The translations under genes were made by a program, and so were the position numbers. A DNA stretch of 64,000 bases. It comes from Geomonas agri (GTDB lineage Bacteria > Desulfobacterota > Desulfuromonadia > Geobacterales > Geobacteraceae). This document shows, piece after piece, positions 24,264 to 42,757 of the stretch. Each line of letters opens with the position of its first letter. Positions within the stretch are counted from its first letter, which is position 1. The DNA lies in assembly GCF_020179605.1 (NCBI RefSeq), contig NZ_JAINZO010000001.1:1248396-1312395 (forward strand), in the 5' to 3' direction. The notes beneath the pieces are model-generated. The model saw nothing but the letters and a program-made list of their open reading frames with translations. It had not been told where the DNA came from and did not search any database.

Positions 24264-24284
24264 AACCCGCAGCACGGAGACACG

Positions 24285-25445
24285 ATGAAACTGCACACCA
24301 TCTCGATCAACAACCTGAAGCGCCGCAAGGCCAAGATGGCATTTTTGACCATCGGCCTCATGGTCGGCATCGCCACCATCGTGACCCTGGTCACCCTGAC
24401 CCGGTCCATGTCCAACGACATCGAGCGGAAGATGGACGAGTTCGGCGCCAACATCCTGATCACCCCGCAAAGTAACGGCCTGTCCATGAACTACGGTGGC
24501 ATCAACCTGGGCGGCGTCACCTTCGACCAGCGTGAGATCAAGCAGGAGGATCTCGACAAGGTCCGCAAAATCAAGAACAACAAGAACATCTCCTCCATCT
24601 CCCCGAAAGTGCTGGGCGGCGTTAAGGTCGGTAACCACGACGTCCTGCTGGTCGGCGTCGACTTCGCGGCGGAGTTGAAGATGAAGCAGTGGTGGCAGAT
24701 CTTCGGCAGCGAGCCCAAAGGCGACAACGAGGTGCTGTTGGGAAGCGACGCCTCCAACACGCTCAACGCGACCTCGGGGGACAGTATCGAGATAAAGGGT
24801 GAGAAGTTCAAGGTGGCCGGCGTCCTGAACCAGACCGGTTCGCAGGACGATTCGCTGGTCTTCATCGCGTTGCCCAAGGCGCAGAAGATCCTGGGCAAGG
24901 AAGGGAAGATAACCATGGCCGAGGTCGCCGCGCTCTGCTCCGGTTGCCCCATCTCCGATATGGTGACCCAGATCGCGGAACTGCTGCCGGACAGCAAGGT
25001 GTCAGCGATCCAGCAGGTCGTGGCGGGACGCCTCAAGGCCCTGGACCAGTTCAAGCGTTTCTCCTATGCCATGGGGAGCGTCGTCGTCTTCATCGGTTCC
25101 CTCATCGTCTTCGTGACCATGATGGGGAGCGTCAACGAACGCACCACCGAAATCGGCGTGTTCCGCGCCATCGGCTTCCGGAAGAGCCATATCATGCGCA
25201 TCATCCTGCTCGAAGCCGCCTTGGTGAGTCTGCTGGCCGGCGTGCTCGGCTACGCGGCGGGCATGGGCGGCGCCAAGCTTGCCCTCCCGTTCATGGCTGA
25301 GACTAAGAACGCGCACCTGGTTTGGGACACGACGGTAGCCTTCGGCTCGATAGCGCTGGCGCTGCTGCTCGGCATCCTGGCCAGTCTCTACCCTGCGCTG
25401 CATGCCAGCAAGATGGACCCGACCGAAGCCCTGAGGGCACTCTAA
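24285..25445 (+). CDS. MacB/FtsX-type ABC transporter permease
   Basis: A 386-residue membrane protein with the MacB-like layout: one N-terminal membrane segment ([20 protein letters not shown], residues 19-38), a large periplasmic domain (about residues 45-275), and three C-terminal segments forming the FtsX domain with [21 protein letters not shown]. The C-terminus [21 protein letters not shown] is diagnostic. It starts at ATG 24285. The ATPase partner follows 11 bp later. It sits between copper ATPase and RND efflux genes under a sigma-54 promoter, so it probably exports a periplasmic or lipid-linked substrate during metal or envelope stress. The substrate is unknown. Confidence 0.88.
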
Positions 25446-25456
25446 GAGAGGAAGAC

Positions 25457-26125
25457 ATGGCGATCATAGAGATGAAAAACGTTAAGAAGCAGTACCAGAC
25501 CGGCTCCGACCTGGTCGAGGCGCTGCGCGGGGTGGATATATCTATCGAGGCTGGAGAGTTCATCACCATCATGGGGCAGTCCGGTTCCGGCAAGAGTACG
25601 CTCCTTTCCGTCCTGGGCGGGATGAACCATCCCACCAGCGGTGAAGTAGAGATGGCCGGGGTAAAGCTGTACCAGTTGAAAAGCGAGGAGTTGGCAGACT
25701 TCAGGGCGCAGAACCTCGGCTTCGTTTTCCAGTCCTTCCACCTGATCCAGTACTTGACTGCACTCGAGAACGTCATGCTGCCGCTGGCTATCGTCAAGAT
25801 GAGCACTGCGGCCAAAAAAGAAGCGGCGCGCCAGGCGCTGGAGCGTGTAGGCCTGGGAGCAAAGACTGACCGGCTCCCCAACCAGCTCTCCGGCGGCGAG
25901 CAGGAGCGCGTCGCCATCGCGCGTGCCATCGTCAACAACCCGCACATCCTGCTCGCGGACGAGCCGACGGGAAACCTTGACTCCAAGACCAGCGAGGAAG
26001 TCATGGCGCTTTTCAGGCAACTGAATGAAGCGGGGCAGACGGTGGTGATGGTTACTCATAACCCGGACAACGGTGCTTATTCGGATCGGACCATTCATCT
26101 CAAGGATGGTTTGATCAGCGCGTAG
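25457..26125 (+). CDS. MacB/LolD-type ABC transporter ATPase
   Basis: A 222-residue ATPase with Walker [10 protein letters not shown] (about residue 40), the family's [14 protein letters not shown] segment, signature [15 protein letters not shown] and Walker [15 protein letters not shown], followed by VVMVTHN. It starts at ATG 25457 with AGAGGAAG upstream, and is coupled to the FtsX permease. It lacks a fused membrane domain, so with the permease it makes a split MacB-type exporter. Terminator follows at 26153. Confidence 0.92.
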
Positions 26126-26152
26126 ATCCCCGCATCTCTGTCATAAGTGGAG

Positions 26153-26206
26153 AAGATCTGGAGAACACTAAGGTTTTTCGTAGTGTTCTTCAGATCTTTC
26201 TTTTTG
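26153..26206 (+). terminator. Terminator of the ABC exporter operon
   Basis: A long stem (AGATCTGGAGAACACTA, 26154-26170, paired with TAGTGTTCTTCAGATCT, 26181-26197, one mismatch) with a 10-nt loop and a TTCTTTTT tail. Confidence 0.88.
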
Positions 26207-26249
26207 TGCCGAGTATTCAAGTAAACAGCAAAACGTGCCGAAGTGTGTA

Positions 26250-26278
26250 TAATATTCCACGGTAAGTGCCGAATATCC
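26250..26278. promoter_or_regulatory. Paired activator sites upstream of the RND efflux operon
   Basis: TAATATTC (26250-26257) and GAATATCC (26271-26278), each one change from GAATATTC, start 21 bp apart. They lie about 60-85 bp before the promoter at 26337. Confidence 0.68.
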
Positions 26279-26336
26279 TTCGCCTTGCTGTCAGGTTGAG
26301 TTTTGAGAACCTTTATAAAACGTATATTTATAACTC

Positions 26337-26352
26337 GGGCACGAAACGTGTA
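26337..26352 (+). promoter_or_regulatory. Sigma-54-like promoter of the RND efflux operon
   Basis: GGGCACGAAACGTGTA fits (T)GGCACG-N4-(T)TG with the right spacing. The -12 GC is replaced by GT, so it is the weakest of the four candidates. Confidence 0.6.
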
Positions 26353-26392
26353 TTTAAGTTGTGAAAGCTACTGCCAAGTTTCTGGAGTCACC

Positions 26393-27670
26393 ATGAAATA
26401 CCGGCTTTTCCCCTTGTACCTGTTGTTGTCCATCCTGATGACCGCGCCTGCGGCCCTCGCCGAAGACGCTAAGCCCGCCACGGAAAACCTCGATCAGCTC
26501 GTGCAGACTGCCCTGGCCAACAACCCGGAACTGAAGTCCACATCGGCGCGCTGGGAGATGTACAAGAGCCGCATCAAGCAGGCGGGTGCACTAGAAGACC
26601 CGATGCTGATGCTGAAACTGCAGAACATGATCGTTACCGATCCGCTGAGCTTCAACAAGGACTCGATGACCCAGAAGGTGGTTGGCATCAGCCAGTTGAT
26701 CCCGTTCGCCGGCAAGCGCAAGCTCAAGGAGGACATCGCATCGGCTGAGGCTGAGACCTACCGCTGGAGCGTGGAAGAGCGCAAATTCGAACTGACCAGG
26801 ATGGTTCGCGAGGCGTACTTCCAGGTCTACTTCACCGATAAGTCCCTGGGCATCATCGATAAGAACATCAAGATCCTGGACGACTTCATCACCCTGGCCC
26901 AGACCAAGTACTCCGTCGGGCAGGGTGCGCAGCAGGATATCTACAAGGCGCTTCTGGAACGCTCCAAGATGCTGGACATGAAGATCTCCCTGGAGCAGCA
27001 GCGCAGAAGCCTCGAGGTGAGCCTCAACTCGCTGCTGAACCGCCCCCAGAGTACCAAGGTCGGTGCCGTCCCCGATTTCAAGCTGGCACCTTTTGCCTAC
27101 ACCCCGGAACAGCTGGTGGATATGGCCGAGGAGAACCGGCCGCAACTCAAAGCGGTCAAGGCCCAGATCGAGAAGGGGCGGGCGGGTCACCTGCTGGCGC
27201 AGAAGGAATCCTACCCGGACTTCAACGTCTCCTTCGAATACATGCAGCGCCAGAAGGCCATGGGGAGCGATGGCGCCGATATGTACTCGCTGGGCGTCAC
27301 TTTCAACCTTCCCATTCAGAAGGAGCGTCGTGCCGCGATGCGGGCCGAGTCCTCCTCTGAGATCAACATGGCCAGCGAGGAGTTGAACGGCGCGCGCAAC
27401 ACCATCTCCTCCGGGGTGAACGACCTCCTGGCGCAGATGGAACGGCGCAGGAAGCTGATCGACCTCTACACCACCGGCATCATCCCGCAGGCGGAGCAGT
27501 CGCTGGAGTCGGCGGTAATCGGCTACCGGGTCAGCAAGGTGGACTTCCTCACCCTGCTGGATAACCGAGTCACCCTGTTCAATTACGAGCGCGAATACTA
27601 CGACTCGATGGCGGATTACCAGATGAAGCTGGCCCAGCTCGAAGCGCTGGTGGGCAAGGACCTGCAGTAA
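26393..27670 (+). CDS. TolC-family outer-membrane efflux protein (CusC/CzcC-like)
   Basis: A 425-residue exported protein. Residues 1-22 form a signal peptide (ALA cleavage), and there is no lipobox. The body has the TolC-type repeat of long coiled-coil helices with short beta segments, such as LVQTALANNPELKSTSARWE at the start and GYRVSKVDFLTLLDNRVTLF near the end. Start chosen at ATG 26393 with TGGAG upstream. It is the outer-membrane duct for the RND pump encoded by the next two genes, from which it is separated by a family B repeat. Confidence 0.9.
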   Translation: MKYRLFPLYLLLSILMTAPAALAEDAKPATENLDQLVQTALANNPELKSTSARWEMYKSRIKQAGALEDPMLMLKLQNMIVTDPLSFNKDSMTQKVVGISQLIPFAGKRKLKEDIASAEAETYRWSVEERKFELTRMVREAYFQVYFTDKSLGIIDKNIKILDDFITLAQTKYSVGQGAQQDIYKALLERSKMLDMKISLEQQRRSLEVSLNSLLNRPQSTKVGAVPDFKLAPFAYTPEQLVDMAEENRPQLKAVKAQIEKGRAGHLLAQKESYPDFNVSFEYMQRQKAMGSDGADMYSLGVTFNLPIQKERRAAMRAESSSEINMASEELNGARNTISSGVNDLLAQMERRRKLIDLYTTGIIPQAEQSLESAVIGYRVSKVDFLTLLDNRVTLFNYEREYYDSMADYQMKLAQLEALVGKDLQ

Positions 27671-27672
27671 CG

Positions 27673-27763
27673 CTCCTCCCCCCGGAGGGGGGAGGTTGGG
27701 AGGGGGGCTGGTTTCGAGATGAAGCATCCCCCTCCCTGTCCCTCCCCCTCCGGGGGAGGGGAC
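27673..27763. repeat. GC-rich inverted repeat, family B, copy 3
   Basis: Arms CTCCTCCCCCCGGAGGGGGG and CCTCCCCCTCCGGGGGAGGG are inverted around a short centre. It lies inside the cus-like operon, 3 bp after the TolC-family stop. Confidence 0.75.
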
Positions 27764-27849
27764 GTGGCTACGCAGGAGCTTGTAATCTGGCCTGTGCTGA
27801 TTGAGCCTAGGCCCCCGATATTAATTACTACCCCGCGAGGTACTTACTC

Positions 27850-29256
27850 ATGAACAAAAGCGTGAAGGTTGCAGTCCCCATTATCCTGGTCCTGGTAGCG
27901 GCGGCTGCCGGTGGCGGATACTACCTGTACCAGCAGAAGCACCAGGCCCCGGCCGGCAAGGAGAAGGCGGCCCAGGGACAGGTCCTGTACACCTGCGCCA
28001 TGCACCCTTTTATTATCAAGGACAAGCCGGGAACCTGTCCCATCTGCGGGATGCAGCTGATCAAGAAGGTCGAAGCGACCCAGGCGAGCGCCCAGGAACA
28101 GAAGATGCTCGGGCACGTTTCACTGTCGCCGACTCAGTCGGTCATGGCCAACGTCGCCACGGTACCGGCCGATTACGAGCCGCTTTCCAAGGAGATCAAC
28201 GCCGTCGGCATCGTGCAGTACGACCAGTCCAAGCAGGCCAAGGTGACCGCCTGGGTCGCCGGGCGTATCGACAAGTTGAACGTGAGCACCGTGGGCGCTT
28301 TCGTCTCCAAAGGTAGGCCGGTGGCTGAAATCTACTCGCCGGACCTAGTTGCCGCGCAGCAGGAATACCTGCTGGCGCTGAGAAGCCGCGACCAGTTCAA
28401 GAAATCGAGCATTGAAGCCATCTCTCAAGGAGGCGAGGGACTGGTGGCCTCGGCGCGCCAGAGGCTGAAACTCCTCGGCGTCAAGGACGAGCAGATCGCC
28501 GGCCTGGAGAAGGCGGGGCATCCCAACATCAAGCTCCCCATCTATACGCCCTTATCTGGCGTTGTGATCGAAAAGGTGGTCCAGGAAGGGCAGTACGTGA
28601 ACATGGGCGACCCGCTCTTCAACATCGCCGACCTCTCCACTGTCTGGGTAGACGTCGAGGTGTATGAGAACGAGTTCAGTTTCGTGAAGATGGGACAACG
28701 GGTGGAGATCGTCTCCCAGTCCTATCCCGGCAAGACTTTCTCCGGGCGCGTCTCCTTCATCTATCCCTTCCTCGATCCCAAGACCCGCACCGTCAAAGTC
28801 AGGGTGGAGATGGCAAACCCGGGCCTCAAGCTGAAGCCGGACATGTTCGTCAACGCCTCCATAAAGGCGCCGCTTGGCAAAGCCCTTGTCGTACCGACCA
28901 CCGCGCTCATGGACACCGGTAAGCGCCAGGTGGTCTGGGTGGAATCCCAGCCGGGCATGTTCGAGCCGCATGACGTGCAGGCCGGCGCCCGCGTGGGGGA
29001 CAAGGTGCAAATCCTGTCCGGCTTGAAACAGGGTGACAAGGTGGCGGCTTCCGGCGGCTACCTGATTGATTCCGAAGCGCAGCTCTCCGGCGGCAGCGGT
29101 GGCGGCGGCCACGAAGGTCATGCCGGCGGAGCCGCAACTCCGGCCGCACCGGCGGCACCGGGATCCGCAGGGGAGCACCAGGGCCACGGTGCCCCGGCCG
29201 CACCCGCCGCGCCCAAGAAGGGCGGCGGCATGGATATGGGCGACATGAAGATGTAG
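27850..29256 (+). CDS. cusB: CusB-type RND periplasmic adaptor with N-terminal heavy-metal-binding domain
   Basis: A 468-residue membrane-fusion protein. An N-terminal membrane anchor (residues 8-25) is followed by the metal-binding domain YTCAMHPFIIKD ... CPICGMQLI (about residues 50-78). The lipoyl/barrel core includes VTAWVAGRIDKLNVSTVGAF and GQYVNMGDPLFNIADLSTVW, as in CusB. The last about 60 residues are an unusual Gly/His/Ala/Pro-rich tail ending in GGGMDMGDMKM, with further Met ligands. It bridges the RND pump and outer-membrane protein and probably loads Cu(I)/Ag(I). Confidence 0.93.
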   Translation: MNKSVKVAVPIILVLVAAAAGGGYYLYQQKHQAPAGKEKAAQGQVLYTCAMHPFIIKDKPGTCPICGMQLIKKVEATQASAQEQKMLGHVSLSPTQSVMANVATVPADYEPLSKEINAVGIVQYDQSKQAKVTAWVAGRIDKLNVSTVGAFVSKGRPVAEIYSPDLVAAQQEYLLALRSRDQFKKSSIEAISQGGEGLVASARQRLKLLGVKDEQIAGLEKAGHPNIKLPIYTPLSGVVIEKVVQEGQYVNMGDPLFNIADLSTVWVDVEVYENEFSFVKMGQRVEIVSQSYPGKTFSGRVSFIYPFLDPKTRTVKVRVEMANPGLKLKPDMFVNASIKAPLGKALVVPTTALMDTGKRQVVWVESQPGMFEPHDVQAGARVGDKVQILSGLKQGDKVAASGGYLIDSEAQLSGGSGGGGHEGHAGGAATPAAPAAPGSAGEHQGHGAPAAPAAPKKGGGMDMGDMKM

Positions 29257-29289
29257 TTGTTGGAATTACTATGAGCACTGAGGTTTTAC

Positions 29290-32200
29290 ATGATTGAAAA
29301 GATCATCGAATATTCCGCCCGCAACCGGGTGATAGTGCTGATGATGTTCGCCCTGCTGATCGCATGGGGCGTCTGGGCGGTCTACAAGACGCCGGTCGAC
29401 GCGATACCGGATCTCTCCGACAACCAGGTCATCGTCTTCACCGATTACCCGGGCCGGTCGCCGCAGGTGGTCGAGGACCAGGTCACCTACCCGCTGGCGG
29501 TCAACCTGCAGGGCCTGCCGCAGGTGCGCGCAGTGCGCGCCTCCTCCGCCTTCGGCTTCTCCATGATCTACGTGATCTTCGAGGACAAGGCGGACATCTA
29601 CTGGGCCAGGACCCGCGTCCTTGAGCGGCTGAACTACGCCGCCAGCCTGTTGCCGCAGGGCGTGGTCCCGACCCTCGGTCCCGACGGCACCGGTGTCGGC
29701 CACGTATTCTGGTACACGCTGGAAGGGAAAGGGTACGACCTTGAGCAGTTGAGGACCCTGCAGGACTGGTTCGTGCGCTACCAGCTGAACACTGTCCCCG
29801 GCGTGGCTGAGGTCGCCTCCATCGGCGGATTCGTGCGCGAGTACCAGGTCGATCTCGACCCCAACCGCCTCTTTGCCTACAACATCAAGGTAAACCAGGT
29901 TGCCGACGCCATCAAGAAGTCCAACAATGACGTAGGCGGCAGGCTCCTGGAGCAGGCCGATGCCGAGTACCTGATCCGCGGCCGCGGCTACGTGAAGTCC
30001 ACTGCCGACCTGGAGAACATCGTGGTCGGCGCCGACATGCGCGGCACACCCATCTACGTCAAAAACCTCGGCACGGTGCAATTGGGCGGCGCCATCCGGC
30101 GCGGCATGCTTGATATGAACGGGCAGGGCGAGGCCGTGGGCGGCATCGTGGTCATGCGCTACGGTGAGAACGCGAAGGACGTCATCGACCGGGTCAAGGA
30201 GAAGATCGTCTCCCTGGAGAAGGGGCTTCCGCCAGGTGTCAAGATCATGGTCTCTTATGATCGCAGCGACCTGATCGAGCGCGCCATCCACACGCTCAAA
30301 CACTCGCTGATCGAGGAATCGATCGTGGTGTCGCTGGTCATCCTGGTGTTCCTGCTTCACTTCCAGAGTGCCCTGGTCATCGTGCTGACGCTCCCCATCG
30401 CGGTGCTCATCTCCTTCATCACCATGAAGCTGATGGGGGTCACTTCGAACATCATGTCGTTGGGCGGCATCGCCATCGCCATTGGCGTGCTGGTCGACGC
30501 CGGCGTCATCATGGTGGAGAACTGCTACCGCCACCTGTCCGAGATGCCACCCGAGGAGCGAAAAGAGAAGCGCCTGGACGTGATCATCACTTCAGCCAAG
30601 CAAGTCGGGCGCGCCATCTTCTTCTCGCTGGCCATCATCATCCTCTCCTTCGTGCCGGTGTTCCTGCTCGAAGGGCAGGAAGGGAAGATGTTCCACCCGC
30701 TCGCCTTCACCAAGACCTTCTCGATGATGGGATCGGCCTTCATCGCCATCACGCTGGTCCCGGTGCTGATGTACTTCCTGATGCGCGGCAAGATGCCGCC
30801 GGAGAGCTCGAACCCGGTGTCGAGCTTCTTCATCAAGCTCTACTCGCCCATCATCCGGTGGGTGCTCAAGTGGAAGAAGACGACCATTGCGCTCAACGTC
30901 CTGGCACTTGCCATCGCCATCCCGATGTTCATGAGCATCGGCAGCGAGTTCATGCCGCCATTGGACGAGGGATCGCTGCTCTATATGCCCGTCACGCTCC
31001 CCAATATCTCCATCAACGAGGCCAAGCGCCTGATCCAGGTGCAGGACACCGTGATCAAGAGCGTACCGGAGGTTCAGCACGTGCTGGGCAAGGTCGGCCG
31101 TGCCGAGACCTCCACCGACCCGGCGCCGGTCTCCATGTTCGAGAGCATCATCATCCTGAAGCCCAAGGAGCAGTGGCGCCCCGGCGTCACCAAGGCCGAC
31201 ATCGTTTCCGAACTGGACGGCAAGCTGCAGCAGATCGGCGTCCGTAACGGCTGGACCCAGCCGATTATCAACCGCATCAACATGCTCTCCACCGGCGTGC
31301 GCACCGACCTAGGTGTCAAGATCTTCGGCTCCGACCTGAACGTCCTGAAGGACCTTGCGGTACAGGCCGAGGGGATCCTGAAGACGGTGCCAGGGGCGGC
31401 GGACGTGGTTGCTGAACGCGTCACCGGCGGCAACTACATCGACATCGACATCGACCGCGAGGCCGCGGCGCGCTACGGCGTTTCCGTTGGGGACATCGAG
31501 GATGTCATTTCCACGGCCCTGGGCGGCGAGATGCTTTCCACTTCTGTCGAGGGGCGCAACCGCTTCCCGATCCGCCTACGCTACATGCGCGAGATGCGCA
31601 GCGACATCCCGTCCATCCAGCGTATCCTCGTCTCCGGCATGGATGGGGCGCAGGTGCCGCTGTCGCTGGTGACCAAGCTGAAGGTGTCCACCGGCGCGCC
31701 GGAGATCAACAGCGAAGGCGGCCTGTTGCGCTCCATCGTCTTCCTCAACGTGCGCGGCCGTGACATGGGCGGTTTCGTCAACGAGGCGAAGACCGTGCTT
31801 GAGAAACAGATGAAGCTTCCTCCGGGCTACTATGTCGCTTGGTCCGGACAATGGGAGAACCAGGTGCGAGCCAAGGCGCGTCTGCAGATGCTCGTTCCTG
31901 CCGGGATCCTGATCATCTTCATCCTGCTCTACTTCACCTTCCACTCGGCGCTCGAGGCGAGCATGGTCATGCTCTCGGTGCCGTTTGCGCTGGTGGGCGG
32001 GGTGTACCTGGTGAAACTGCTCGGCTACAACATGTCGGTTGCGGTCTGGGTCGGCTTCATCGCCCTCTACGGCATCGCGGTTGAAACCGGCGTGGTGATG
32101 GTCATCTACCTGCACGAGGCGCTGGACCGGAAACTCTTGAAGGGGCCGGTAACCGAGCAGGATATCTACGACGCCACCTTCGAAGGGGCAGTGCTCAGGC

Positions 32201-32427
32201 TTCGTCCCAAGTTGATGACGGTGGCGGTGGCCCTGCTCGGCCTGGTACCCATCATGTGGTCCACGGGAACCGGCGCAGACGTGATGAAGCCGATCGCGGC
32301 GCCCATGATTGGCGGTATGATTTCGTCCGCGGTGCACGTGCTGATCATGACGCCGGTCATCTTCGTGCTGATGAAAAAGCACGACCTGAAGAAAGGCAAA
32401 CTGAAGTACTCGGGGATGAAGCATTAG
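29290..32427 (+). CDS. cusA: CusA-type Cu(I)/Ag(I) RND efflux pump
   Basis: A 1045-residue inner-membrane proton-driven pump with 12 membrane helices. The three periplasmic methionines that bind Cu(I)/Ag(I) in E. coli CusA are kept with identical spacing: M566 (LLYMPVTLP), M616 (APVSMFES) and M665 (INMLSTG), 50 and 49 residues apart. The proton-relay helix carries IAIGVLVDAGVIMVENCYRH, the copper/silver subgroup form. It starts at ATG 29290 and follows cusB by 33 bp. It exports monovalent copper or silver through the TolC-family duct. Confidence 0.95.
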   Translation: MIEKIIEYSARNRVIVLMMFALLIAWGVWAVYKTPVDAIPDLSDNQVIVFTDYPGRSPQVVEDQVTYPLAVNLQGLPQVRAVRASSAFGFSMIYVIFEDKADIYWARTRVLERLNYAASLLPQGVVPTLGPDGTGVGHVFWYTLEGKGYDLEQLRTLQDWFVRYQLNTVPGVAEVASIGGFVREYQVDLDPNRLFAYNIKVNQVADAIKKSNNDVGGRLLEQADAEYLIRGRGYVKSTADLENIVVGADMRGTPIYVKNLGTVQLGGAIRRGMLDMNGQGEAVGGIVVMRYGENAKDVIDRVKEKIVSLEKGLPPGVKIMVSYDRSDLIERAIHTLKHSLIEESIVVSLVILVFLLHFQSALVIVLTLPIAVLISFITMKLMGVTSNIMSLGGIAIAIGVLVDAGVIMVENCYRHLSEMPPEERKEKRLDVIITSAKQVGRAIFFSLAIIILSFVPVFLLEGQEGKMFHPLAFTKTFSMMGSAFIAITLVPVLMYFLMRGKMPPESSNPVSSFFIKLYSPIIRWVLKWKKTTIALNVLALAIAIPMFMSIGSEFMPPLDEGSLLYMPVTLPNISINEAKRLIQVQDTVIKSVPEVQHVLGKVGRAETSTDPAPVSMFESIIILKPKEQWRPGVTKADIVSELDGKLQQIGVRNGWTQPIINRINMLSTGVRTDLGVKIFGSDLNVLKDLAVQAEGILKTVPGAADVVAERVTGGNYIDIDIDREAAARYGVSVGDIEDVISTALGGEMLSTSVEGRNRFPIRLRYMREMRSDIPSIQRILVSGMDGAQVPLSLVTKLKVSTGAPEINSEGGLLRSIVFLNVRGRDMGGFVNEAKTVLEKQMKLPPGYYVAWSGQWENQVRAKARLQMLVPAGILIIFILLYFTFHSALEASMVMLSVPFALVGGVYLVKLLGYNMSVAVWVGFIALYGIAVETGVVMVIYLHEALDRKLLKGPVTEQDIYDATFEGAVLRLRPKLMTVAVALLGLVPIMWSTGTGADVMKPIAAPMIGGMISSAVHVLIMTPVIFVLMKKHDLKKGKLKYSGMKH

Positions 32428-32429
32428 GC

Positions 32430-32458
32430 GAATATGCTACTGCCGCAGTAGAATATTC
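32430..32458. promoter_or_regulatory. Paired activator sites upstream of the Met/His-rich protein gene
   Basis: GAATATGC (32430-32437) and GAATATTC (32451-32458) start 21 bp apart, the third occurrence of this arrangement. They lie about 60-85 bp upstream of the sigma-54 promoter at 32515. Confidence 0.72.
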
Positions 32459-32514
32459 CTCACGACACTCTCTCGTGGTGCCGTGAAACCACGCTGAAAC
32501 GGCACTTTAGCTCT

Positions 32515-32530
32515 TGGCACACCGCGTGCT
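32515..32530 (+). promoter_or_regulatory. Sigma-54 promoter of the Met/His-rich protein gene
   Basis: TGGCACACCGCGTGCT has the conserved -24 TGGCAC and -12 GC at correct spacing, the best -12 match of the four candidates. An inverted repeat GTGCCGT / ACGGCAC (32478-32505) just upstream may end cusA transcription. Confidence 0.78.
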
Positions 32531-32572
32531 TAGTCAATAACAGATTATTTTTCACGCAAAAGGAGAACTACC

Positions 32573-33052
32573 ATGAAGAAACTCGTCGTTCTGGCTGCCG
32601 CCGCACTCGCTCTGTCTGCACCGTTTGCTTCCTATGCTATGGACCACGGTTCCATGGACATGGGGCACGGCGATATGAAGATGGACCATGATATGGGTGG
32701 CGTCGCTCACCAGGAAGTTGTCAACGGCGTCAAGGCCACCTTCAAGGTTATGAGCATGAAAGAGCACATGGCCGCCATGAAGATGGAACTGCCCAAGGGG
32801 ATGAAAGAGACCCACCACATTGCAGTCGAGTTCAAGGACGCCAAGACCGGCAAGCCGCTTACCGAAGGCGAAGTGAAAGCGAAGGTCCAGGGCCCGGACA
32901 AATCCGAGCAGACCAAGGACCTGATGGGCATGCAGGGCCACTTCGGCGCCGACTTCGACCTCTCCAAGAAGGGCAAGTACGGCGTGATGTGCAAGTTCAA
33001 GCTGAAAGACGGCCAGGTGCGCACCTCCAAGTTCTGGTACACCGTTAAGTAG
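32573..33052 (+). CDS. Periplasmic Met/His-rich protein, probable copper binder
   Basis: A 159-residue exported protein. The signal peptide ends at about residue 22 (SYA). The mature N-terminus is a Met/His/Asp cluster (MDHGSMDMGHGDMKMDHDMG) suited to Cu(I)/Cu(II) binding. Residues 45-159 form a beta-rich domain (VNGVKATFKVMSMKEHMAAM ... KYGVMCKFKLKDGQVRTSKF) like small Ig-fold YtkA/FixH-type domains; this family link is tentative. The ATG at 32573 follows AAGGAGAA. It is a single-gene unit with its own sigma-54 promoter, paired activator sites and terminator, implying a strongly induced periplasmic metal buffer. Confidence 0.8.
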   Translation: MKKLVVLAAAALALSAPFASYAMDHGSMDMGHGDMKMDHDMGGVAHQEVVNGVKATFKVMSMKEHMAAMKMELPKGMKETHHIAVEFKDAKTGKPLTEGEVKAKVQGPDKSEQTKDLMGMQGHFGADFDLSKKGKYGVMCKFKLKDGQVRTSKFWYTVK

Positions 33053-33229: not shown

Positions 33230-34114
33230 ATGACCACAGATACTCTCATCCGCACCTTTCGCACCGTGTCCCTCTTTCTTCTCCTTGCCTTATTTGTAGG
33301 GTGCACGTCCCGCCAGGAACCGCCTGCCGAAGCGAAGGGGAGGGTGAATGCCACGGCCTCCTTCGTAAAGTACTTCGGCCCGGTGCCGCCGGTGGACAAG
33401 GGCACCTGCTACGGCTTCGTTATCTATTTCCCTTCCGCCAAGGAAGTGGGCAAAGTGCTGCCTTTCCCGTTCTTCACCTTTGACGAGGCGAGTCTCAAGA
33501 AGGTGGCTCTTGGCAAATTGATGGCGGGTATGGGTGACCAGAAAGCATATCAGGGCGAACTGGTTCAGCCGTTTCCGGTCGGCAGCCGCGTCCTTGATGT
33601 CTCTCAAGCCGCCGGCACGGTCACCGTCAATTTCAGCAAGGAAGTAAATTCGATCAAGGAACAGCAACAGCAGGCAGTGGTGAATGCCGTGGTCCTAACG
33701 TTGAGCCAGTTTACCGGAGTGACCAAGGTCGTCATTAAGGTCGAGGGGGCGGAAAGTCCGCTTGAGAAACTGGTCGTGAAAGCCGATGAAAGTGCCGTGC
33801 TTCCCCTCGCACCGCCGAGGCTTTTGGGTGTGGTCGGCATGAAGGAAAAGGGTGCCGCCAACGTCGAGGAGATCGACGCCTTCTTCGATCGCCCGGTGGA
33901 CATCAAGGAACTCACGCTGTCCGCAGCCGATGGGGGGAAGATTGACGGGGACGTCTATCAGTCGGTGTTCGACATGGCAGGGGTCTTAAAGGCAAAAAAG
34001 CCGCTGCCGTACCAGGCCGGCACGCAGGTGAAGGTTCATTGGAAGGTTACCGATAAGCTGGGGCGTAGCGCCTCGGGTGATGTCGGCGTCGCTCTCGAGA
34101 TAAGGGAACATTGA
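33230..34114 (+). CDS. GerMN-domain lipoprotein
   Basis: A 294-residue exported lipoprotein with lipobox LFVGC (acylated C25). Residues 60-170 form a GerMN (sporulation/spore-germination) domain: TCYGFVIYFPSAKEVGKV, VPQPFPVGSRVL-like strand and GTVTVNFSKEVNSI, then a long helix. The C-terminal third is a beta-rich (Gmad2-like) domain starting near PRLLGVVGMKEKG. It is followed after 41 bp by a membrane sensor kinase and sigma-54 response regulator, so it may be an envelope sensor or partner of that kinase. That functional link is inference from gene order. Confidence 0.78.
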   Translation: MTTDTLIRTFRTVSLFLLLALFVGCTSRQEPPAEAKGRVNATASFVKYFGPVPPVDKGTCYGFVIYFPSAKEVGKVLPFPFFTFDEASLKKVALGKLMAGMGDQKAYQGELVQPFPVGSRVLDVSQAAGTVTVNFSKEVNSIKEQQQQAVVNAVVLTLSQFTGVTKVVIKVEGAESPLEKLVVKADESAVLPLAPPRLLGVVGMKEKGAANVEEIDAFFDRPVDIKELTLSAADGGKIDGDVYQSVFDMAGVLKAKKPLPYQAGTQVKVHWKVTDKLGRSASGDVGVALEIREH

Positions 34115-34155: not shown

Positions 34156-35376
34156 ATGTTCAAGAAAGCCATATTGCTGCTCGGCGTCGCAGTAACTTGT
34201 TGTCTGCTCTGGTTCGCCGTCTACGACTATCGCGAGGCCGGGCCCATAGCCAGGGAAAACCTGCGTGGGCTCGCGCTGTCGCTCACCACCGCCATAGAAA
34301 AACTTGCTGCCAACGATCCCTCCTTAGAGACACTGCATTCTTTCCATCCCGCTGATGTAGCCTACTTCGCCCTCGTCGACGGCCGGGGTGTCTACCGCTT
34401 CCATTCCAACCGTGACCTCGTCGGAACTGCCGTTGATCATAGGGCCGCCAAGGAGCAGGTGTTATTCGACAGGTCCGAGACTCGTGTCGTCCTCGGCACC
34501 GGTGAGCGTGCCTACCAGTTCGCCTCGCCGGTGACCGTGGCCGGAGAGCCGCTTCTCCTGGTGCTCACCCTGCACACGTTCCGCGCTGACGCGGTGACAC
34601 GCCGTGCCAGGCTCAATATGACCATCGTGGTTGCCTTGGTCGGCATCGGGTGGCTGTTGAGCCTGGGGTTGGCGCGATATGCGCGGCGCCAGGAGCGTCA
34701 CGAGGAGGAACTGGCGCGCCGGGAGGCGTTGGCGAAACTGGGGGAAATGGGAGCCGTGCTCGCCCACGAGATTCGGAACCCTCTGGCGGGAATCAAGGGA
34801 TTCGCCCAGGTTATCGCTGCGAAACCGCAGGAGTTACGCAACGGAGCTTTCGCCGAGAGCATCGTCACCGAGGCTGTCCGCCTGGAAAGTCTGGTCAACG
34901 ATCTGTTGCTCTATGCCGCCAACGAACCCGACACGGTGGCAGATTTTCCCCTTGCCCCCCTTGTCGAACACGTCGTTTCCCTTCATGGACCCGATGCCGG
35001 CTACGGTCATGTGGGCATCACCTGGAGCTGCCCGGCAGATCTGCTGGTGCGTGGCAACAGGGACAGGATCGAACAGGCGTTGTTGAACCTTGTCCATAAT
35101 GCCCTTCAGGCCATGGCCCAGGGAGGTGAACTCCGCGTGGTTGCGTCACGATCTGGCAGAAACGTCGTCATCAGGATTGAGGATAACGGGCACGGCATAG
35201 CCGATGAGCATCTCCCGCTCGTTTTCGAGCCTTTTTTCACCACCAAAACCAGGGGAACCGGGCTGGGGCTCGCCCTGTGCAAGAAAATAGTCGAGGCAAA
35301 CGGTGGCAGGATTACGCTGAAAAGCAGGGCAGGGGAGGGGACCGTGGTGACGATGGTCCTGCCCCGTGCACGCTGA
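34156..35376 (+). CDS. Membrane sensor histidine kinase (ZraS/NtrB-like)
   Basis: A 406-residue kinase. Membrane segments near residues 5-22 and 154-173 enclose a periplasmic sensor domain of about 130 residues. A short linker leads to the HisKA domain with phosphoacceptor H204 (VLAHEIRNPLAGIKGF), then the HATPase domain with NLVHNALQAM (N box), DNGHGI and GTGLGLALCKKI. The layout matches ZraS-type kinases that pair with sigma-54 activators. The response regulator starts 18 bp later. It probably senses metal or envelope damage, given the adjoining genes. Confidence 0.9.
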   Translation: MFKKAILLLGVAVTCCLLWFAVYDYREAGPIARENLRGLALSLTTAIEKLAANDPSLETLHSFHPADVAYFALVDGRGVYRFHSNRDLVGTAVDHRAAKEQVLFDRSETRVVLGTGERAYQFASPVTVAGEPLLLVLTLHTFRADAVTRRARLNMTIVVALVGIGWLLSLGLARYARRQERHEEELARREALAKLGEMGAVLAHEIRNPLAGIKGFAQVIAAKPQELRNGAFAESIVTEAVRLESLVNDLLLYAANEPDTVADFPLAPLVEHVVSLHGPDAGYGHVGITWSCPADLLVRGNRDRIEQALLNLVHNALQAMAQGGELRVVASRSGRNVVIRIEDNGHGIADEHLPLVFEPFFTTKTRGTGLGLALCKKIVEANGGRITLKSRAGEGTVVTMVLPRAR

Positions 35377-35394: not shown

Positions 35395-36744
35395 ATGAAC
35401 GGAACTGTGCTGGTTGTCGAGGATGACGATACCTTTCGTGCCTTAATACAAACCATTTTGCAGGACGAGGGATACCAGGTGCAGACCGCGGCCGACGGCG
35501 TCAAGGCACTGCGCCTGTTGCGTCAGACCGCCTTTGACGTCGTGGTTTCCGACCTGAAGCTGCCAGGAAAGAGCGGTCTGGAGCTGTTTCGGGAGACGAG
35601 ACCGGACCCGGGCGCACCTCCGTTCATCTTCCTCACCGCCTTTGGCACCGTCGACGAGGCCGTTGGCGCCATCAAAGACGGGGCGGTGGATTTCCTGACC
35701 AAGCCCCTGAAGGATCCGCAGGCCTTGATCACGCTGGTGCAGCGGACCATCGAGGCACAGGGGCGGACCCGCGAGTACCTGTCTTTGAAGGAGTCCGAGG
35801 CTGCCGGGTTGCCGCCTGAGGAGCTTCTTTTTGCCGGTGATGCGATGCGCGCCGTGCGGCAATTGGTCGGGGACGTGGCTGCCACCATGGCAAACGTCCT
35901 CATCTTCGGCGAGAGCGGCACCGGCAAGGAGTTGGTCGCCCGGACCATTCACCTGATGAGCCAGAGAAGCAAGGGCGCGTTTGTCGCCATAAACTGTGCC
36001 GCCATTCCGGAAAACCTCCTGGAGAGCGAACTGTTCGGTCACGAGAAGGGTGCCTTCACCGGCGCCATCCAGGCGCGCCAGGGGAAATTCGAGCTCGCCA
36101 AGGGGGGCACCATCTTCCTCGACGAGATCGGTGAAATGCCCCTTCCGCTCCAGGCGAAGCTGCTGCGCGTGATTCAGGAGCGCGCCTTTGAGAGGGTGGG
36201 GGGGACCCGGGAGATGAAGGCGGACGTCCGCATCATTGCGGCCACCAACAGGAACCTGCGCGAGGAAGTTGATCAGCGGCGTTTCCGTGAAGACCTGTAT
36301 TACCGGCTCAACGTCTTCCCGCTTCGACTTCCCGCGCTTCGCGAAAGAATCGATGCTATAGATCTTTTGGCCGAATACTTCGTGCGACGCTTTAGTTCTC
36401 AACTCGGCAAGACGCTTAAGGGAATTGAGCATGACGCGGTCGCCGCGCTACGCCGGTACCCTTGGCCCGGTAATGTCCGGGAACTGCAAAACGTGATGGA
36501 ACGGGCGGTGATCCTGTCCAGGGACCTGGTCCGAGCGGGAACGCTCCCGGACGAGATCGTCTCTGTCGCTCAAGCCGGACAAATGGGCAGCAGGGATTGC
36601 CTGAAGGGGGCGGAACGCGACCTGATTGCACGGGCCATCGCGAAACATGGGGGCAACCGCCGCCTCGCCGCGGAGGAACTCGGTATTTCCCGCCGGTCAT
36701 TGCAGTACAAGCTCAAGGAGTACGGCTTTCTCGACGAGGGATAA
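35395..36744 (+). CDS. Sigma-54-dependent response regulator (NtrC/ZraR family)
   Basis: A 449-residue enhancer-binding activator. The receiver domain has phosphoacceptor D53 (VVVSDLKLPG). The AAA+ domain has Walker A GESGTGKE, the sigma-54 contact loop GAFTGA (HEKGAFTGAIQAR), Walker B FLDEIGEM and arginine fingers in RFREDLYYRLNVFPLRLPAL. The C-terminal Fis-type HTH is GGNRRLAAEELGISRRSLQY. It is co-transcribed with the kinase. It is the only sigma-54 activator in this window, and is the obvious candidate to act at the 21-bp-spaced sites at 24068, 26250 and 32430. Confidence 0.94.
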   Translation: MNGTVLVVEDDDTFRALIQTILQDEGYQVQTAADGVKALRLLRQTAFDVVVSDLKLPGKSGLELFRETRPDPGAPPFIFLTAFGTVDEAVGAIKDGAVDFLTKPLKDPQALITLVQRTIEAQGRTREYLSLKESEAAGLPPEELLFAGDAMRAVRQLVGDVAATMANVLIFGESGTGKELVARTIHLMSQRSKGAFVAINCAAIPENLLESELFGHEKGAFTGAIQARQGKFELAKGGTIFLDEIGEMPLPLQAKLLRVIQERAFERVGGTREMKADVRIIAATNRNLREEVDQRRFREDLYYRLNVFPLRLPALRERIDAIDLLAEYFVRRFSSQLGKTLKGIEHDAVAALRRYPWPGNVRELQNVMERAVILSRDLVRAGTLPDEIVSVAQAGQMGSRDCLKGAERDLIARAIAKHGGNRRLAAEELGISRRSLQYKLKEYGFLDEG

Positions 36745-36858
36745 GTGGTGCAAGGACGCCTGTGGCGGTGCAAAGAATTGCACAACAGACGCTGTCCTAG
36801 CCTCACATCGATTTCCCCATTCAACGCTATTTCGGTGCATTATGCAGTACACCACGAT

Positions 36859-36874
36859 TGGCACGAACCGTGAT
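36859..36874 (+). promoter_or_regulatory. Sigma-54 promoter of the envelope cluster
   Basis: TGGCACGAACCGTGAT, followed by AAAC, closely copies the promoter at 24177. No GAATATTC pair was found upstream. Instead there is a GGTGCAA-[13 bp]-GGTGCAA direct repeat at 36747 and 36767. Confidence 0.72.
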
Positions 36875-36965
36875 AAACCTCTACCGTCGGCACTACGAAA
36901 AGGAGGTTGAGGTTTTGGAAACGGAGCGTTGTTCGGTGAACTGTGACCCGAGAAGTGGGGGAGCG

Positions 36966-37046
36966 ATGAAAGTATTGGCGATGGTTTTGATAGTGGCGGG
37001 ATTCGCGCTGCTGACCGGGTGCTGCATGTTGCATCCGATGTGGTGA
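36966..37046 (+). CDS. Tiny lipoprotein (26 residues)
   Basis: ATG 36966 follows GGGGGAG. The peptide is a complete lipoprotein signal (MKVLAMVLIVAGFALLTGC) plus seven further residues, so the mature lipidated product would be only CCMLHPMW. That octapeptide holds two Cys, two Met and one His. The segment resembles the CxMHP element of the heavy-metal-binding domains nearby. The gene is first in a cluster behind a sigma-54 promoter. It could be an outer-membrane metal-binding lipopeptide; no family is recognised. Confidence 0.6.
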   Translation: MKVLAMVLIVAGFALLTGCCMLHPMW

Positions 37047-37070
37047 CAACCGGAAGGACGGTGAATTGTT

Positions 37071-37619
37071 ATGGCGGGTGGGCGACTTGTTGTGATGATT
37101 ATTGTTTTGCTCTTGAACGGGCTGTGGATCGGGGATGCTTCCGCGGGCTTTCTCGGTTTCGGCTCGGATGACAAGGGAAAAAGCGGCCTTGACTTCAACC
37201 GTGGCTACGACCTCAACACCGTGGGAAACGTGTCCGGTCGAGTCACCGCCGCGCCGCACCAGGTGGAAAACGAGCAGTACATCCTTGAGGTGCAGACCGC
37301 ATCGGGTCCGGTGAACCTGAGCGTCGGACCAGGATCGTATTGGCGCAAAAGCGGGATAGCGGTACGGGTAAGCGATGAGGTCAGTGCCAAAGGCGCCAAG
37401 GCGCAGGGGCTTGATGGAAAGAATTACCTGCTGACACAGAAGTTGGTGAACAAGACCACGGGAGCCGCTGTAGAACTGCGCAGCGAGAGCGGCGATCCGG
37501 CATGGTCGAGCAAGGGAACCGGGGCCGGCATGCGCTCGCAGGACAACCGGTTCGGTTCCGGCATGGGCGGCGGTTTCATGCGTGGCGGCGGCATGATGGG
37601 CGGCGGCATGAGGCGTTAG
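37071..37619 (+). CDS. Exported protein with Gly/Met-rich C-terminus, function unknown
   Basis: A 182-residue protein with a signal peptide (residues 1-25, ASA cleavage). The central part (about 45-150) is predicted beta-rich, with VGNVSGRVTAAPHQVENEQY and VNLSVGPGSYWRKSG suggesting a small OB-like or barrel domain. The last about 35 residues are Gly/Met/Arg-rich (GSGMGGGFMRGGGMMGGGM). It lies 24 bp after the tiny lipoprotein gene and 31 bp before a beta-barrel gene. The Met-rich tail fits Cu(I) binding, but no function is established. Confidence 0.75.
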   Translation: MAGGRLVVMIIVLLLNGLWIGDASAGFLGFGSDDKGKSGLDFNRGYDLNTVGNVSGRVTAAPHQVENEQYILEVQTASGPVNLSVGPGSYWRKSGIAVRVSDEVSAKGAKAQGLDGKNYLLTQKLVNKTTGAAVELRSESGDPAWSSKGTGAGMRSQDNRFGSGMGGGFMRGGGMMGGGMRR

Positions 37620-37650
37620 TGCCTTGAGCCGGGCGTACTACGAGGTGACG

Positions 37651-38517
37651 ATGTTCAAAAAAGGGATTGATCGCAAGGTATTGGGCTTTTTTGCTCTGGC
37701 GGGATGTTTGCTGCTGCCCGGGCAGGTCCGGGCCGAGGGGCCGACGCTCTCAGCCTCCATGGGGTTCGAGTTCGCCTCTGGGGATTACGGCACGAGCACA
37801 AAGACCCAGTCCATCTACCTTCCGTTCACCTTGGCGCTGGCAGCCACCGAGCGGCTTGGGTTTTCACTGGAAATACCCTATGTCTACCAGAGCAACTCGG
37901 CGGTGAACACCGGCGTCATCCTCGGCTCGGGCGGACAAATGGCCGGGATGCAAAAAGAGGTGGCTGCGATGAATGGTGGCCATGGCGGCAGCGGCTCGAT
38001 GTCCTCCGCCACCCCGGACAACTACGGCAAATCCGCGAGCGGCCTGGGTGACATTACCGCAAAGGCCGGTTACGTCCTGGTGCCGGAAGGCGAACTGATG
38101 CCGAGAGTCCGTCCCTACCTTTTCGTTAAGTTCCCGACAGGGGACAAGAACCAGGCGCTGGGCACCGGGGCCTTCGACGAAGGAGGTGCCGTCGAACTGT
38201 TCAAGCAGATCGACCGGTGGTACACCTTCGCCGAGGCGGGCTATACCTTTCAGGGGCATTCGTCAGTGCTGCCCCTGAAGGATTACTTCAGCTTCAATGC
38301 GGGCGCTGGTTACGCGGTTACGGATGCTCTGCTCCCCATGCTGGTGGTGAAAACTTCGACGGCGCCCATCGAGGGGGCCAGCGAGCTTGTAGAAACACGC
38401 CTCAAGTTGAAGTACCTGGTTACCAGCCGGACCAGCATCGAAGGGTACGTAAGTAAAGGATGGACCCGCAGCAGTGCCGACTACGGTAGTGGCATAGCGG
38501 TCAGTTACGATTTCTGA
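37651..38517 (+). CDS. Outer-membrane beta-barrel protein
   Basis: A 288-residue exported protein. The signal peptide ends near residue 28 (VRA). The mature part alternates polar and hydrophobic residues in strand-like segments (SIYLPFTLALAATERLGFSL, YLFVKFPTGDKN, YTFAEAGYTF) and ends in Phe (SYDF), typical of porin-like barrels. A His/Met/Gly/Ser loop (about residues 95-125: MAGMQKEVAAMNGGHGGSGS) interrupts it and could bind metal. Start chosen at ATG 37651 with GAGGTG upstream. It may provide an outer-membrane path for the cluster. Confidence 0.75.
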   Translation: MFKKGIDRKVLGFFALAGCLLLPGQVRAEGPTLSASMGFEFASGDYGTSTKTQSIYLPFTLALAATERLGFSLEIPYVYQSNSAVNTGVILGSGGQMAGMQKEVAAMNGGHGGSGSMSSATPDNYGKSASGLGDITAKAGYVLVPEGELMPRVRPYLFVKFPTGDKNQALGTGAFDEGGAVELFKQIDRWYTFAEAGYTFQGHSSVLPLKDYFSFNAGAGYAVTDALLPMLVVKTSTAPIEGASELVETRLKLKYLVTSRTSIEGYVSKGWTRSSADYGSGIAVSYDF

Positions 38518-38556
38518 ACATACACGATTACGACAATCTAAATAGGGGGCATTACC

Positions 38557-39366
38557 ATGAAAAAGGAAATTATCGCGGCAGTGGCAGCAGTTGTGGGGCT
38601 TGGTCTGCTGGCGGGGTGCGGTGGTGGCGGCTCCTCGTCCACCTCGGCCACGGTTGCCGGTAAGGTGGCGGACGGATACCTGGAGAAGGCAACCGTCTTC
38701 CTCGACAAGAACAACAACTATCGTCTCGATGCAGGCGAGCCCAACACCCAGAGCGACGCCAATGGCGCCTATACGCTTACCGTGGATCCTGCCGATGTAG
38801 GCAAATACCCGATCGTCGCCCTGGCCGTCAAGGACGTCACCATCGACCACGATACCGGCCTTGCCGTGGCACACAGTTACCTGATGAGCCTGCCCAAGGA
38901 CAGCGTTTCCGGGACCGTGAGCAGCAACTTCATCAGCCCTATCACGACCCAGGTCCGCGAGATGATGGAGACCGGCAACTACACCATGACCCAGGCCATG
39001 GACCAGTTGCGGCTCAAGCTGCACCTTGCTCAGGATGCTGACATGATGGGCGACTACATGGCAGGGCAGAATACGGCGCTGCACCAAACCGCCCAGAATA
39101 TGGCGACCCTCATGGGGGGGCAGATGGGGCTGGTGTACCAGCCGGGCAGTGACACCGTGGTGGACGTCAACCGTTACCGCGGCATGATGGGGGCCATGTT
39201 CAGCAACATGTCTTCGGTGCGGGCCGCCAACACGGACGCGCAGATGACGCAGTTGATGAACCAGATGTCCTCGGACCTCAACACCATCATGATCGGGCAA
39301 CCGTTCCACAACATGTCTTCCTACTTCGGCGGCATGATGGGGAGCGGGGGGATGATGGGCCAATAG
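38557..39366 (+). CDS. Met-rich lipoprotein, function unknown
   Basis: A 269-residue lipoprotein (lipobox LLAGC, acylated C21) with a Gly/Ser tether. Residues 30-100 resemble a carboxypeptidase-regulatory-like beta domain (VAGKVADGYLEKATVFLDKN ... TQSDANGAYTLTV). The C-terminal half is helical and unusually Met-rich (MMGDYMAGQ, MATLMGGQMG, YRGMMGAMFSNM, and a GGMMGSGGMMGQ end), with more than 25 Met. It is the last gene of the cluster and is followed by a bidirectional terminator. The Met content suggests a surface or periplasmic copper store; this is inference. Confidence 0.75.
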   Translation: MKKEIIAAVAAVVGLGLLAGCGGGGSSSTSATVAGKVADGYLEKATVFLDKNNNYRLDAGEPNTQSDANGAYTLTVDPADVGKYPIVALAVKDVTIDHDTGLAVAHSYLMSLPKDSVSGTVSSNFISPITTQVREMMETGNYTMTQAMDQLRLKLHLAQDADMMGDYMAGQNTALHQTAQNMATLMGGQMGLVYQPGSDTVVDVNRYRGMMGAMFSNMSSVRAANTDAQMTQLMNQMSSDLNTIMIGQPFHNMSSYFGGMMGSGGMMGQ

Positions 39367-39376: not shown

Positions 39377-39410
39377 AGCGGCATCCTCCGGAGAAGTGGG
39401 GGATGCCGCT
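39377..39410. terminator. Bidirectional terminator between convergent units
   Basis: Stem AGCGGCATCC / GGATGCCGCT with a 14-nt loop. The minus-strand side ends in TTTTGAA, the plus-strand side in CTTG, so it serves the minus-strand kinase best. Confidence 0.7.
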
Positions 39411-39418: not shown

Positions 39419-41683
<2,265 letters not shown>

Positions 41684-41696
41684 CAAAGATGTCCGG

Positions 41697-42551
41697 TTAC
41701 TTAGCTTGTTTGGGCTGCTGTTTCTCAAGCCGGTCAAAATCAACATTGGCAAAGAAGGAGTAGTCGCGCTTGTAGTCAGCCCTGACCGGTTTGGTCAGTT
41801 TCACCGCCTCCAGCATCTTGCGTCCCTGGTCGGTCTTGTCCAGGTTAAGCAGTGCGACCGTGACTGCATCGCGAACTTTTTTGGGAACTCTGGGATGTGC
41901 TGACAAAGGGTGGGGGGGGATCTGTGGGGTTTGCATGAGGACCCGGAATTCGTTCTGCATTTCGCGCGCATCTTCCATCATGCTGCTGTCGAGGGTGGCG
42001 CCGGCATCTGCCTTCCCGAGCAGGACGCTTTTGGCGACATTTATTGTGGAGCCGCTGAAAGATACGTTGAAGTCGATATTTTGGCCGGTGATAAGGGCGT
42101 GGCGCGTGATGACGCTGCAGACGTTTTTAGGGCCTACGATGGCGATGGTCTTGCCTTCCAGGTCTTTAACCTTGGTATAGGGGGAGTCCTTACGCACGAA
42201 GACTTGTCCTCGTAACATATTGGAACCACGTACTAATGGGATATATTTCTGTTTCTGGTAGGCCAGGAAGAACATGTTGGGGGCGGCATACATGAAGTCC
42301 GCATCGCCGGCCTGGGTCTGCTCCAGGAAGGTTGTTATCTTGTCATAGAGTTTCAGTTCGACCTTGACGCCTAGTTCGCGACTCAGGTATTCCGCGACAG
42401 GCGTCCAGTTTTTATGAAGGGTCACGGCCGGAAGATTTGGGACAATAGCCAGCGTATAGCTTTTGTCCATAGCGGCTGCAAAGCAGGGCAGGGTAGTAAG
42501 AAAGAGGATGGCCAAAGTAAAAGTTAAAAACCTGAATCTGAAGCACGTCAT
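41697..42551 (-). CDS. PhnD-like periplasmic substrate-binding protein
   Basis: A 284-residue type II periplasmic binding protein of the phosphate/phosphite/phosphonate (PhnD) family. The signal peptide ends near residue 25 (CFA). Family segments are YTLAIVPNLPAVTLHKNWTP, ADFMYAAPNMFFLAYQ and VRKDSPYTKVKDLEGKTIAI. Start chosen at the second ATG (42551), 7 bp from GGAGG; an ATG two codons earlier is possible. No permease or ATPase genes accompany it. It is followed directly by a sensor kinase gene, so it probably serves in sensing and not in transport. Confidence 0.85.
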   Translation of the reverse strand: MTCFRFRFLTFTLAILFLTTLPCFAAAMDKSYTLAIVPNLPAVTLHKNWTPVAEYLSRELGVKVELKLYDKITTFLEQTQAGDADFMYAAPNMFFLAYQKQKYIPLVRGSNMLRGQVFVRKDSPYTKVKDLEGKTIAIVGPKNVCSVITRHALITGQNIDFNVSFSGSTINVAKSVLLGKADAGATLDSSMMEDAREMQNEFRVLMQTPQIPPHPLSAHPRVPKKVRDAVTVALLNLDKTDQGRKMLEAVKLTKPVRADYKRDYSFFANVDFDRLEKQQPKQAK

Positions 42552-42757
42552 ACACATTCCTCCAAAGCATTGGCGTTGTGTGATGCTGGTACAGCTGTAA
42601 CTGAAGGAGAATACTGGTCGGCGAAATACTATGCCTGAAACAGGGACGCAGTAACAGTTGCTGGTAACGAAATCTCCTGAAAGTCGCGCTGGTCTAGAAA
42701 TGACATCACACGTTGTCTCTTCGGCGGGTTATGTCTGTAACTGTAGGAGGAATGCAG

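Follow-up and report, generated by a model that had tools for sequence, protein, structure and literature searches.

A conserved envelope gene module of Geobacterales with a predicted sigma-54 switch and a putative role in copper handling

Organization of the gene cluster

We examined a 64,000-nucleotide stretch of the Geomonas agri genome (contig NZ_JAINZO010000001.1, positions 1,248,396 to 1,312,395; "the window"), in which genes for a two-component system and four exported proteins lie beside a group of copper genes. The features are the following.

20967-33052, + strand: neighbouring copper genes (CsoR-type repressor, CopA ATPase, CusC/CusB/CusA, YtkA-like), context outside the operon
32573-33052, + strand: Met/His-rich YtkA-like protein, within the copper gene group
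34156-35376, + strand: sensor histidine kinase, ZraS-like, with a periplasmic sCache-like sensor (Pfam HATPase_c/HisKA; best NCBIfam match ZraS)
35395-36744, + strand: NtrC-type sigma-54-activating response regulator (Response_reg, Sigma54_activat and HTH_8), adjoining the module in 30/30 loci
36768-36783, + strand: enhancer palindrome GTGCAAAGAATTGCAC, predicted binding site of the regulator, conserved upstream of the module across Geobacterales
36859-36873, + strand: sigma-54-type promoter TGGCACGAACCGTGA, with 62 orthologous sites
36966-37046, + strand: tiny lipoprotein of 26 aa (MKVLAMVLIVAGFALLTGCCMLHPMW), predicted mature octapeptide CCMLHPMW; homologues at the same place in several genera
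37071-37619, + strand: GlyMet, an exported OB-fold protein of 182 aa with a Gly/Met C-terminal tail
37651-38517, + strand: outer-membrane beta-barrel of the Phenol_MetA_deg family with a Gly/Ser/Met-rich loop (seen in the loop alignment)
38557-39366, + strand: MetLP, a Met-rich lipoprotein with a beta domain bearing an EF-hand-like DKNNNYRLDAGE loop, then a Met-rich helical half; matches in 76/141 genomes
39377-39410, + strand: intrinsic terminator-like hairpin (14 pairs, 9 GC), end of the operon

The four reading frames for exported proteins that the preliminary description had placed behind a sigma-54-type promoter are all present there. Since the intergenic gaps within 36966-39366 are 24-39 nt and the hairpin with its 14-bp stem follows at 39377-39410, a single transcript fits this arrangement. 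The barrel frame has an ATG start at 37651, and its earlier in-frame start is a TTG at 37624. The four envelope products are indeed uncharacterized, as that description had it, in that none belongs to a Pfam or NCBIfam family except the barrel (Phenol_MetA_deg); our literature searches, in which subscription journals were thinly covered, found no description of the module.

The response regulator has the receiver, AAA+ sigma-54 interaction and Fis-type HTH domains of the NtrC family. ZraSR is a sigma-54 two-component pair that drives a neighbouring gene for a small exported protein, ZraP, and the module too places a pair of the ZraS/ZraR kind beside a gene for a small exported protein. It differs in that its kinase (214 bits, NCBIfam ZraS cut-off 479) and regulator (367.6 bits, ZraR cut-off 760) score far under the family thresholds, no ZraP-type protein was found and the products are other ones.

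Conservation of the module

Relatives of GlyMet occur in 97 of the 141 Geobacterales genomes, and the nearest named relatives of the cluster are those of Geomonas species and Citrifermentans. At each of the best 30 loci (30/30) GlyMet is flanked immediately upstream by the response regulator and immediately downstream by the barrel, and MetLP comes next in 28. The regulator, usually with the kinase, accompanies the OB gene at 58 of 60 loci from named genomes; one of the remaining two lies on a contig that begins 0.7 kb upstream. The proposal that the adjacent kinase and activator form a module with the envelope genes is thus strongly supported. Kinase, regulator, OB-fold protein and mostly the barrel recur together through Geobacterales, joined in one clade by MetLP; a set of distant Geobacterales copies has kinase and regulator downstream of the barrel. 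Kindred loci in Desulfobulbaceae hold kinase, regulator, a small Gly-rich protein (below) and the OB protein, mostly with no barrel hit.

Low-complexity proteins of small size invite over-reading, and the barrel shows no Met enrichment, as might be expected if unrelated small envelope genes had merely gathered beside a copper island. The gene order is, however, kept in several families together with a conserved enhancer, and this conservation refutes a chance grouping, to which we give practically no credence.

Promoter and enhancer

The sigma-54-like box at 36859 reads TGGCACGAACCGTGATAAAC and that at 24177, upstream in the window, reads TGGCACGACACTTGATAAAC; both have GA rather than GC at the -12 element. 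We collected 62 distinct orthologous promoter sites by requiring TGGCA; among these the TG of the -12 element is kept in 61 and the C of the classical GC in only 9. Since the relaxed -12 recurs in orthologous sites, the non-consensus element at 36859 looks characteristic of the family rather than a spurious match.

The palindrome GTGCA-N6-TGCAC lies after the regulator's stop codon and ahead of the operon, some 90 bp before the sigma-54 box. It recurs ahead of most orthologs, with an N5 spacer in place of N6 in many distant copies. At the 62 orthologous sites the distance from the palindrome's first base to the -12/TGGCA box is 79-92 bp, in most cases 90-91. A composite search of the 141 genomes (palindrome, 58-84 bases, then TTGGCA) gave 100 matches, spread over 70 genomes; the reversed pattern, used as control, gave 7. 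Of the 100, 72 lead into the module. On comparison of these sequences the module, together with its regulatory element, is established.

Other genomes carry copies of the palindrome-promoter element at further places. With genes named from our reading of the sequences, these copies stand before a Gly-zipper lipoprotein gene that lies upstream of the kinase, before MetLP alone, and before genes for a TolC/RND pump, for diheme peroxidase-like proteins and for a cytochrome with a repeat lipoprotein behind it. The range of genes behind these predicted elements points to an envelope regulon. The element is found before a hydrogenase small subunit-like gene too.

The window holds the palindrome once, even with one mismatch allowed. 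The promoters at 24177 and 32515, ahead of genes of the copper island, have no palindrome; they have instead GAATATNC sites 21 bp apart, in pairs at 24068/24089 and 32430/32451 that lie in the cus and YtkA promoters. "Nearly identical", as the promoters at 36859 and 24177 had been called, thus holds for the sigma-54 core and fails for the enhancer sites. The co-regulation with cusA expected from the 24177 promoter finds no support in view of these differences, and control of the cus operon by the module's own regulator was rejected because of the single palindrome and the GAATATNC sites. As only the sigma-54 core is common to them, the module operon and the copper operons are most likely under different activators, and the GAATATNC sites are predicted to be a separate sigma-54 enhancer of the copper operons. 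Such sites are found at 24068-24096, 26271-26278 and 32430-32458, paired 21 bp apart at two of these three places; the sigma-54-type boxes that precede the FtsX/ABC, CusCBA and YtkA-like genes follow them at a distance of 60-110 bp. One further pair in the genome (C1:1039700) lies downstream of a FAD-dependent disulfide reductase-like gene.

OB-fold protein, barrel and small Gly-rich protein

The AlphaFold2 model of GlyMet is of high confidence over residues 50-140 (core pLDDT >90), and the protein is assigned to the OB fold from this predicted model alone; one relative matches the OB family PF01336 at E 0.002, under the cut-off. The model matches PriB (1woc) with Z 9.2 and rmsd 2.4 over 80 residues, and single-stranded DNA-binding proteins (SSBs) with Z 8-9 (VIA-align). 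Lysyl-tRNA synthetases head the Foldseek matches, which we attribute to the shared OB fold alone. DNA binding is unlikely, since the protein is exported, and the likeness of the modelled fold to PriB and SSBs would give no function. A search of the PDB found no sequence relatives of the OB protein or of the barrel, the profile search giving only chance-level rows.

Across the aligned relatives none of the invariant positions of the OB domain is a Met, His or Cys, so that the domain shows no CusF-like copper site and any metal ligands of the protein would lie in its tail, where 6 Met occur in 33 residues (p 5e-4). Membership of the CusF family was rejected, as PF11604 gives no match. The barrel matches PF13557 at 39.7 bits (cut-off 22) and is thus a member of Phenol_MetA_deg; its Met content of 2.4% shows no overall enrichment, and the His of its loop is unconserved in relatives.

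Three exported proteins with an OB fold, YgiW, YdeI and SipA, are known to bind proteins of the outer membrane and to give protection from peptides, peroxide and cadmium (PMC6370654). The module protein resembles them as an exported single OB fold that probably works with an outer-membrane protein, and its gene adjoins the barrel gene in nearly all Geobacterales copies, Met-poor ones included. It differs in having no detectable sequence membership (no Pfam or NCBIfam match to the YgiW/BOF family), a Gly/Met tail, a barrel gene of its own and a two-component switch. YgiW is not among the fold matches listed, but a relation by fold may still hold. By analogy with YgiW, YdeI and SipA and their porins, the OB protein is most likely a partner of the barrel.

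This analogy also supplies the main rival to a copper or silver role for the module, namely a general envelope-stress function in which OB protein and barrel would act in the manner of YgiW-OmpF, YdeI-OmpD or SipA-OmpA against antimicrobial peptides, oxidants or several metals, with Met as a sacrificial oxidant sink and not a copper ligand. The near-constant OB-barrel pair is in keeping with it, as is the fact that other genomes have the same enhancer ahead of genes for TolC/RND pumps, diheme peroxidase-like proteins and cytochromes. Weighed against the Met and copper-gene data below, we regard this alternative as rather doubtful.

A small secreted Gly-rich protein of Geobacterales and Desulfobulbaceae, with a strongly conserved RPAGSQRRDGTFLTTGTTANGSTTRP stretch and DGSG/DGTG motifs and in no Pfam family, is encoded about 300-450 bp upstream of the OB gene (L043, L123, L139 and other loci). 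Most relatives have such a gene preceding the OB gene; the window has none. One might suppose that the barrel exports this protein (in relatives) and the Gly/Met protein as low-complexity surface proteins, in the manner of FapF: as with FapF, an outer-membrane barrel stands beside genes for Gly-rich exported proteins, in many relatives the secreted protein with its strongly conserved RDGTFLTTGTTANGSTTRP stretch is encoded before the OB gene, and the FapF model gives the barrel a weak hit (E 0.084). That hit, however, scores 11.7 bits against the 700-bit cut-off of NF058560, on which ground we rejected FapF-type secretion; moreover, the barrel has 288 aa where FapF has about 400 aa with a coiled-coil extension, no protease gene is in the cluster, no other Fap components were recognised and the window itself has no Gly-rich small protein. 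We therefore judge such a secretion system improbable.

MetLP and two types of module

MetLP has 24 Met in 268 residues (9.0% against a background of 3.15%, p 5.5e-6), of which 23 are in the C-terminal half. Its model is of moderate confidence and has no clear structural relative (best Foldseek E 0.02). The claim that three of the four products carry strong Met clusters thus stands for MetLP and the Gly/Met tail; the "His/Met/Gly cluster" attributed to the barrel is its weakest part, given the absence of overall Met enrichment and the unconserved loop His. In 26 genomes MetLP is encoded outside the module; in 12 of these it has CusA or YtkA no more than 15 kb away, several times with YtkA at no more than a gene's length. 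As a 30-kb span is less than 1% of a 4-Mb genome, this proximity is far above chance by size alone, although related genomes are not independent.

The modules are of two types. The M-type, to which that of the window belongs, includes MetLP and has Met-rich products; the D-type has no MetLP, is Met-poor and is almost without copper neighbours. In the kinase tree the M-type is nearly one clade and the D-type falls mostly outside it. CusA or YtkA is found within 15 kb of 23 of the 52 modules with MetLP, against 4 of the 59 without; Fisher p values on these counts treat loci as independent and so overstate the copper association. With the M-type nearly confined to a single clade, the kinase tree requires only about 5-6 changes in copper adjacency, and a paired test, for which the pairs are too few, is not significant. 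The last 35 aa of the OB protein have a mean of 5.85 Met with MetLP and 2.14 without, and the Met content of the small Gly-rich protein is 12.7% in copper-adjacent M-type modules, 7.0% in other M-type modules and 2.3% where MetLP is missing.

The proposed copper handling therefore finds partial support: Met content co-varies with copper genes and MetLP is near CusA or YtkA even outside the module, which also speaks against a general envelope-stress role, yet about half of the M-type and nearly all MetLP-less copies have no copper genes nearby. Two His of the kinase sensor, H83 and H140, are invariant (both kept in 53/53 kinases), and modules lacking Met or copper genes conserve them just as well, so that the signal is possibly other than copper; this likeness of the sensor in Met-poor modules favours the envelope-stress alternative.

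The tiny lipoprotein

In both the 26-aa protein and MetLP a lipobox (LTGC or LAGC) follows a hydrophobic stretch, and both are predicted from sequence to be acylated and cleaved as lipoproteins. About 16 distinct homologues of the tiny protein lie upstream of OB genes in several genera. Counting from the lipobox Cys, nearly all homologues have a predicted mature peptide of eight residues (seven in one Geomonas copy, nine in one other), with forms such as CCMLHPMW, CCMMHPMW, CCGLHHIW, CMGMWHPM, CMGMMHGM, CMGMMHGI and CMGMMHWI; this form, rich in Cys, Met, His and Trp, is kept across homologues. The gene offers an example of a conserved lipoprotein whose predicted mature part is only eight residues long, under the size that gene callers usually report. 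For the copies from Geomonas and Citrifermentans the pooled pN/pS is 0.58, a weak result. When the 141 genomes were searched with a DNA pattern matching the CMGM(M/W)H type, there were 8 hits, with 0 for the control; seven are upstream of OB genes, and the eighth is beside a gene for a Met-rich small protein, with cusA about 13 kb away on the contig. At L200:920-1590, where no OB gene was recognised alongside, a stand-alone Met/Gly-rich small protein and a tiny lipoprotein (mature CMGMMHPM) are encoded on a contig with cusA.

The Cu(I) site of CusF consists of His36, Met47 and Met49 capped by Trp44 (PMC9302797), and by analogy the octapeptide appears to offer the same residue types. It is a tentative but real possibility that the lipid-anchored octapeptide (CCMLHPMW here; CMGMWHPM, CMGMMHGM or CCGLHHIW in other genera) binds Cu(I)/Ag(I) through its thioether, imidazole and thiol groups and its Trp, which would place the product of the 26-aa gene among the smallest known metallo-lipoproteins. 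Tethered to the membrane and produced along with its Met-rich partners under a dedicated sigma-54 switch, it would then take the place of CusF.

A candidate for the CusF role

CusA is present in 113 of the 141 Geobacterales genomes; the CusF model PF11604 has no match in the window's genome, nor in 135 of the 141 (6 match), and G. sulfurreducens has been reported to be without CusF (PMC7726332). By these profile searches Geobacterales run CusABC largely without CusF, which leaves copper delivery and buffering in the periplasm to be explained; the M-type module is a concrete candidate for this role, and it offers a conserved regulator, a predicted binding site and a defined set of genes. As in CusCFBA, putative ligands for soft metals in the periplasm are encoded next to a CusABC pump, and the octapeptide has the kinds of residue used at the CusF site (His, two Met, Trp). 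Unlike CusCFBA, the module has no CusF homologue, its putative ligands are in low-complexity tails and a lipopeptide rather than a folded OB site, and it is under separate sigma-54 regulation.

On balance we lean modestly towards the M-type module being a dedicated sensor switch for the production of proteins that would bind Cu(I)/Ag(I) at the outer membrane and in the periplasm, copper being the presumed metal. The membrane kinase would sense a periplasmic signal through its two invariant sensor His and phosphorylate the cognate sigma-54 activator, which would switch the operon on by binding GTGCA-N6-TGCAC some 90 bp ahead of the sigma-54 box. The predicted output is the lipid-anchored octapeptide, the periplasmic OB-fold protein with its Gly/Met tail, presumably partnering the outer-membrane barrel as YgiW, YdeI and SipA do porins, the barrel itself and the Met-rich lipoprotein. 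The M-type products would serve as thioether-rich soft-metal ligands at the outer membrane and in the periplasm, and may buffer copper near the CusABC pump in bacteria that have no CusF.

Two neighbouring regions flank the module in related genomes. The gene at 33230-34114, between the YtkA-like gene and the kinase, encodes a GerMN-domain lipoprotein whose C-terminal part weakly matches CopC (E 0.015), and it is kept at this place in many copper-adjacent copies. Downstream, at 39419-42557, are convergent genes for a hybrid histidine kinase and a phosphonate-type (PhnD-like) binding protein, which are found beside the module in Geomonas and Citrifermentans loci.
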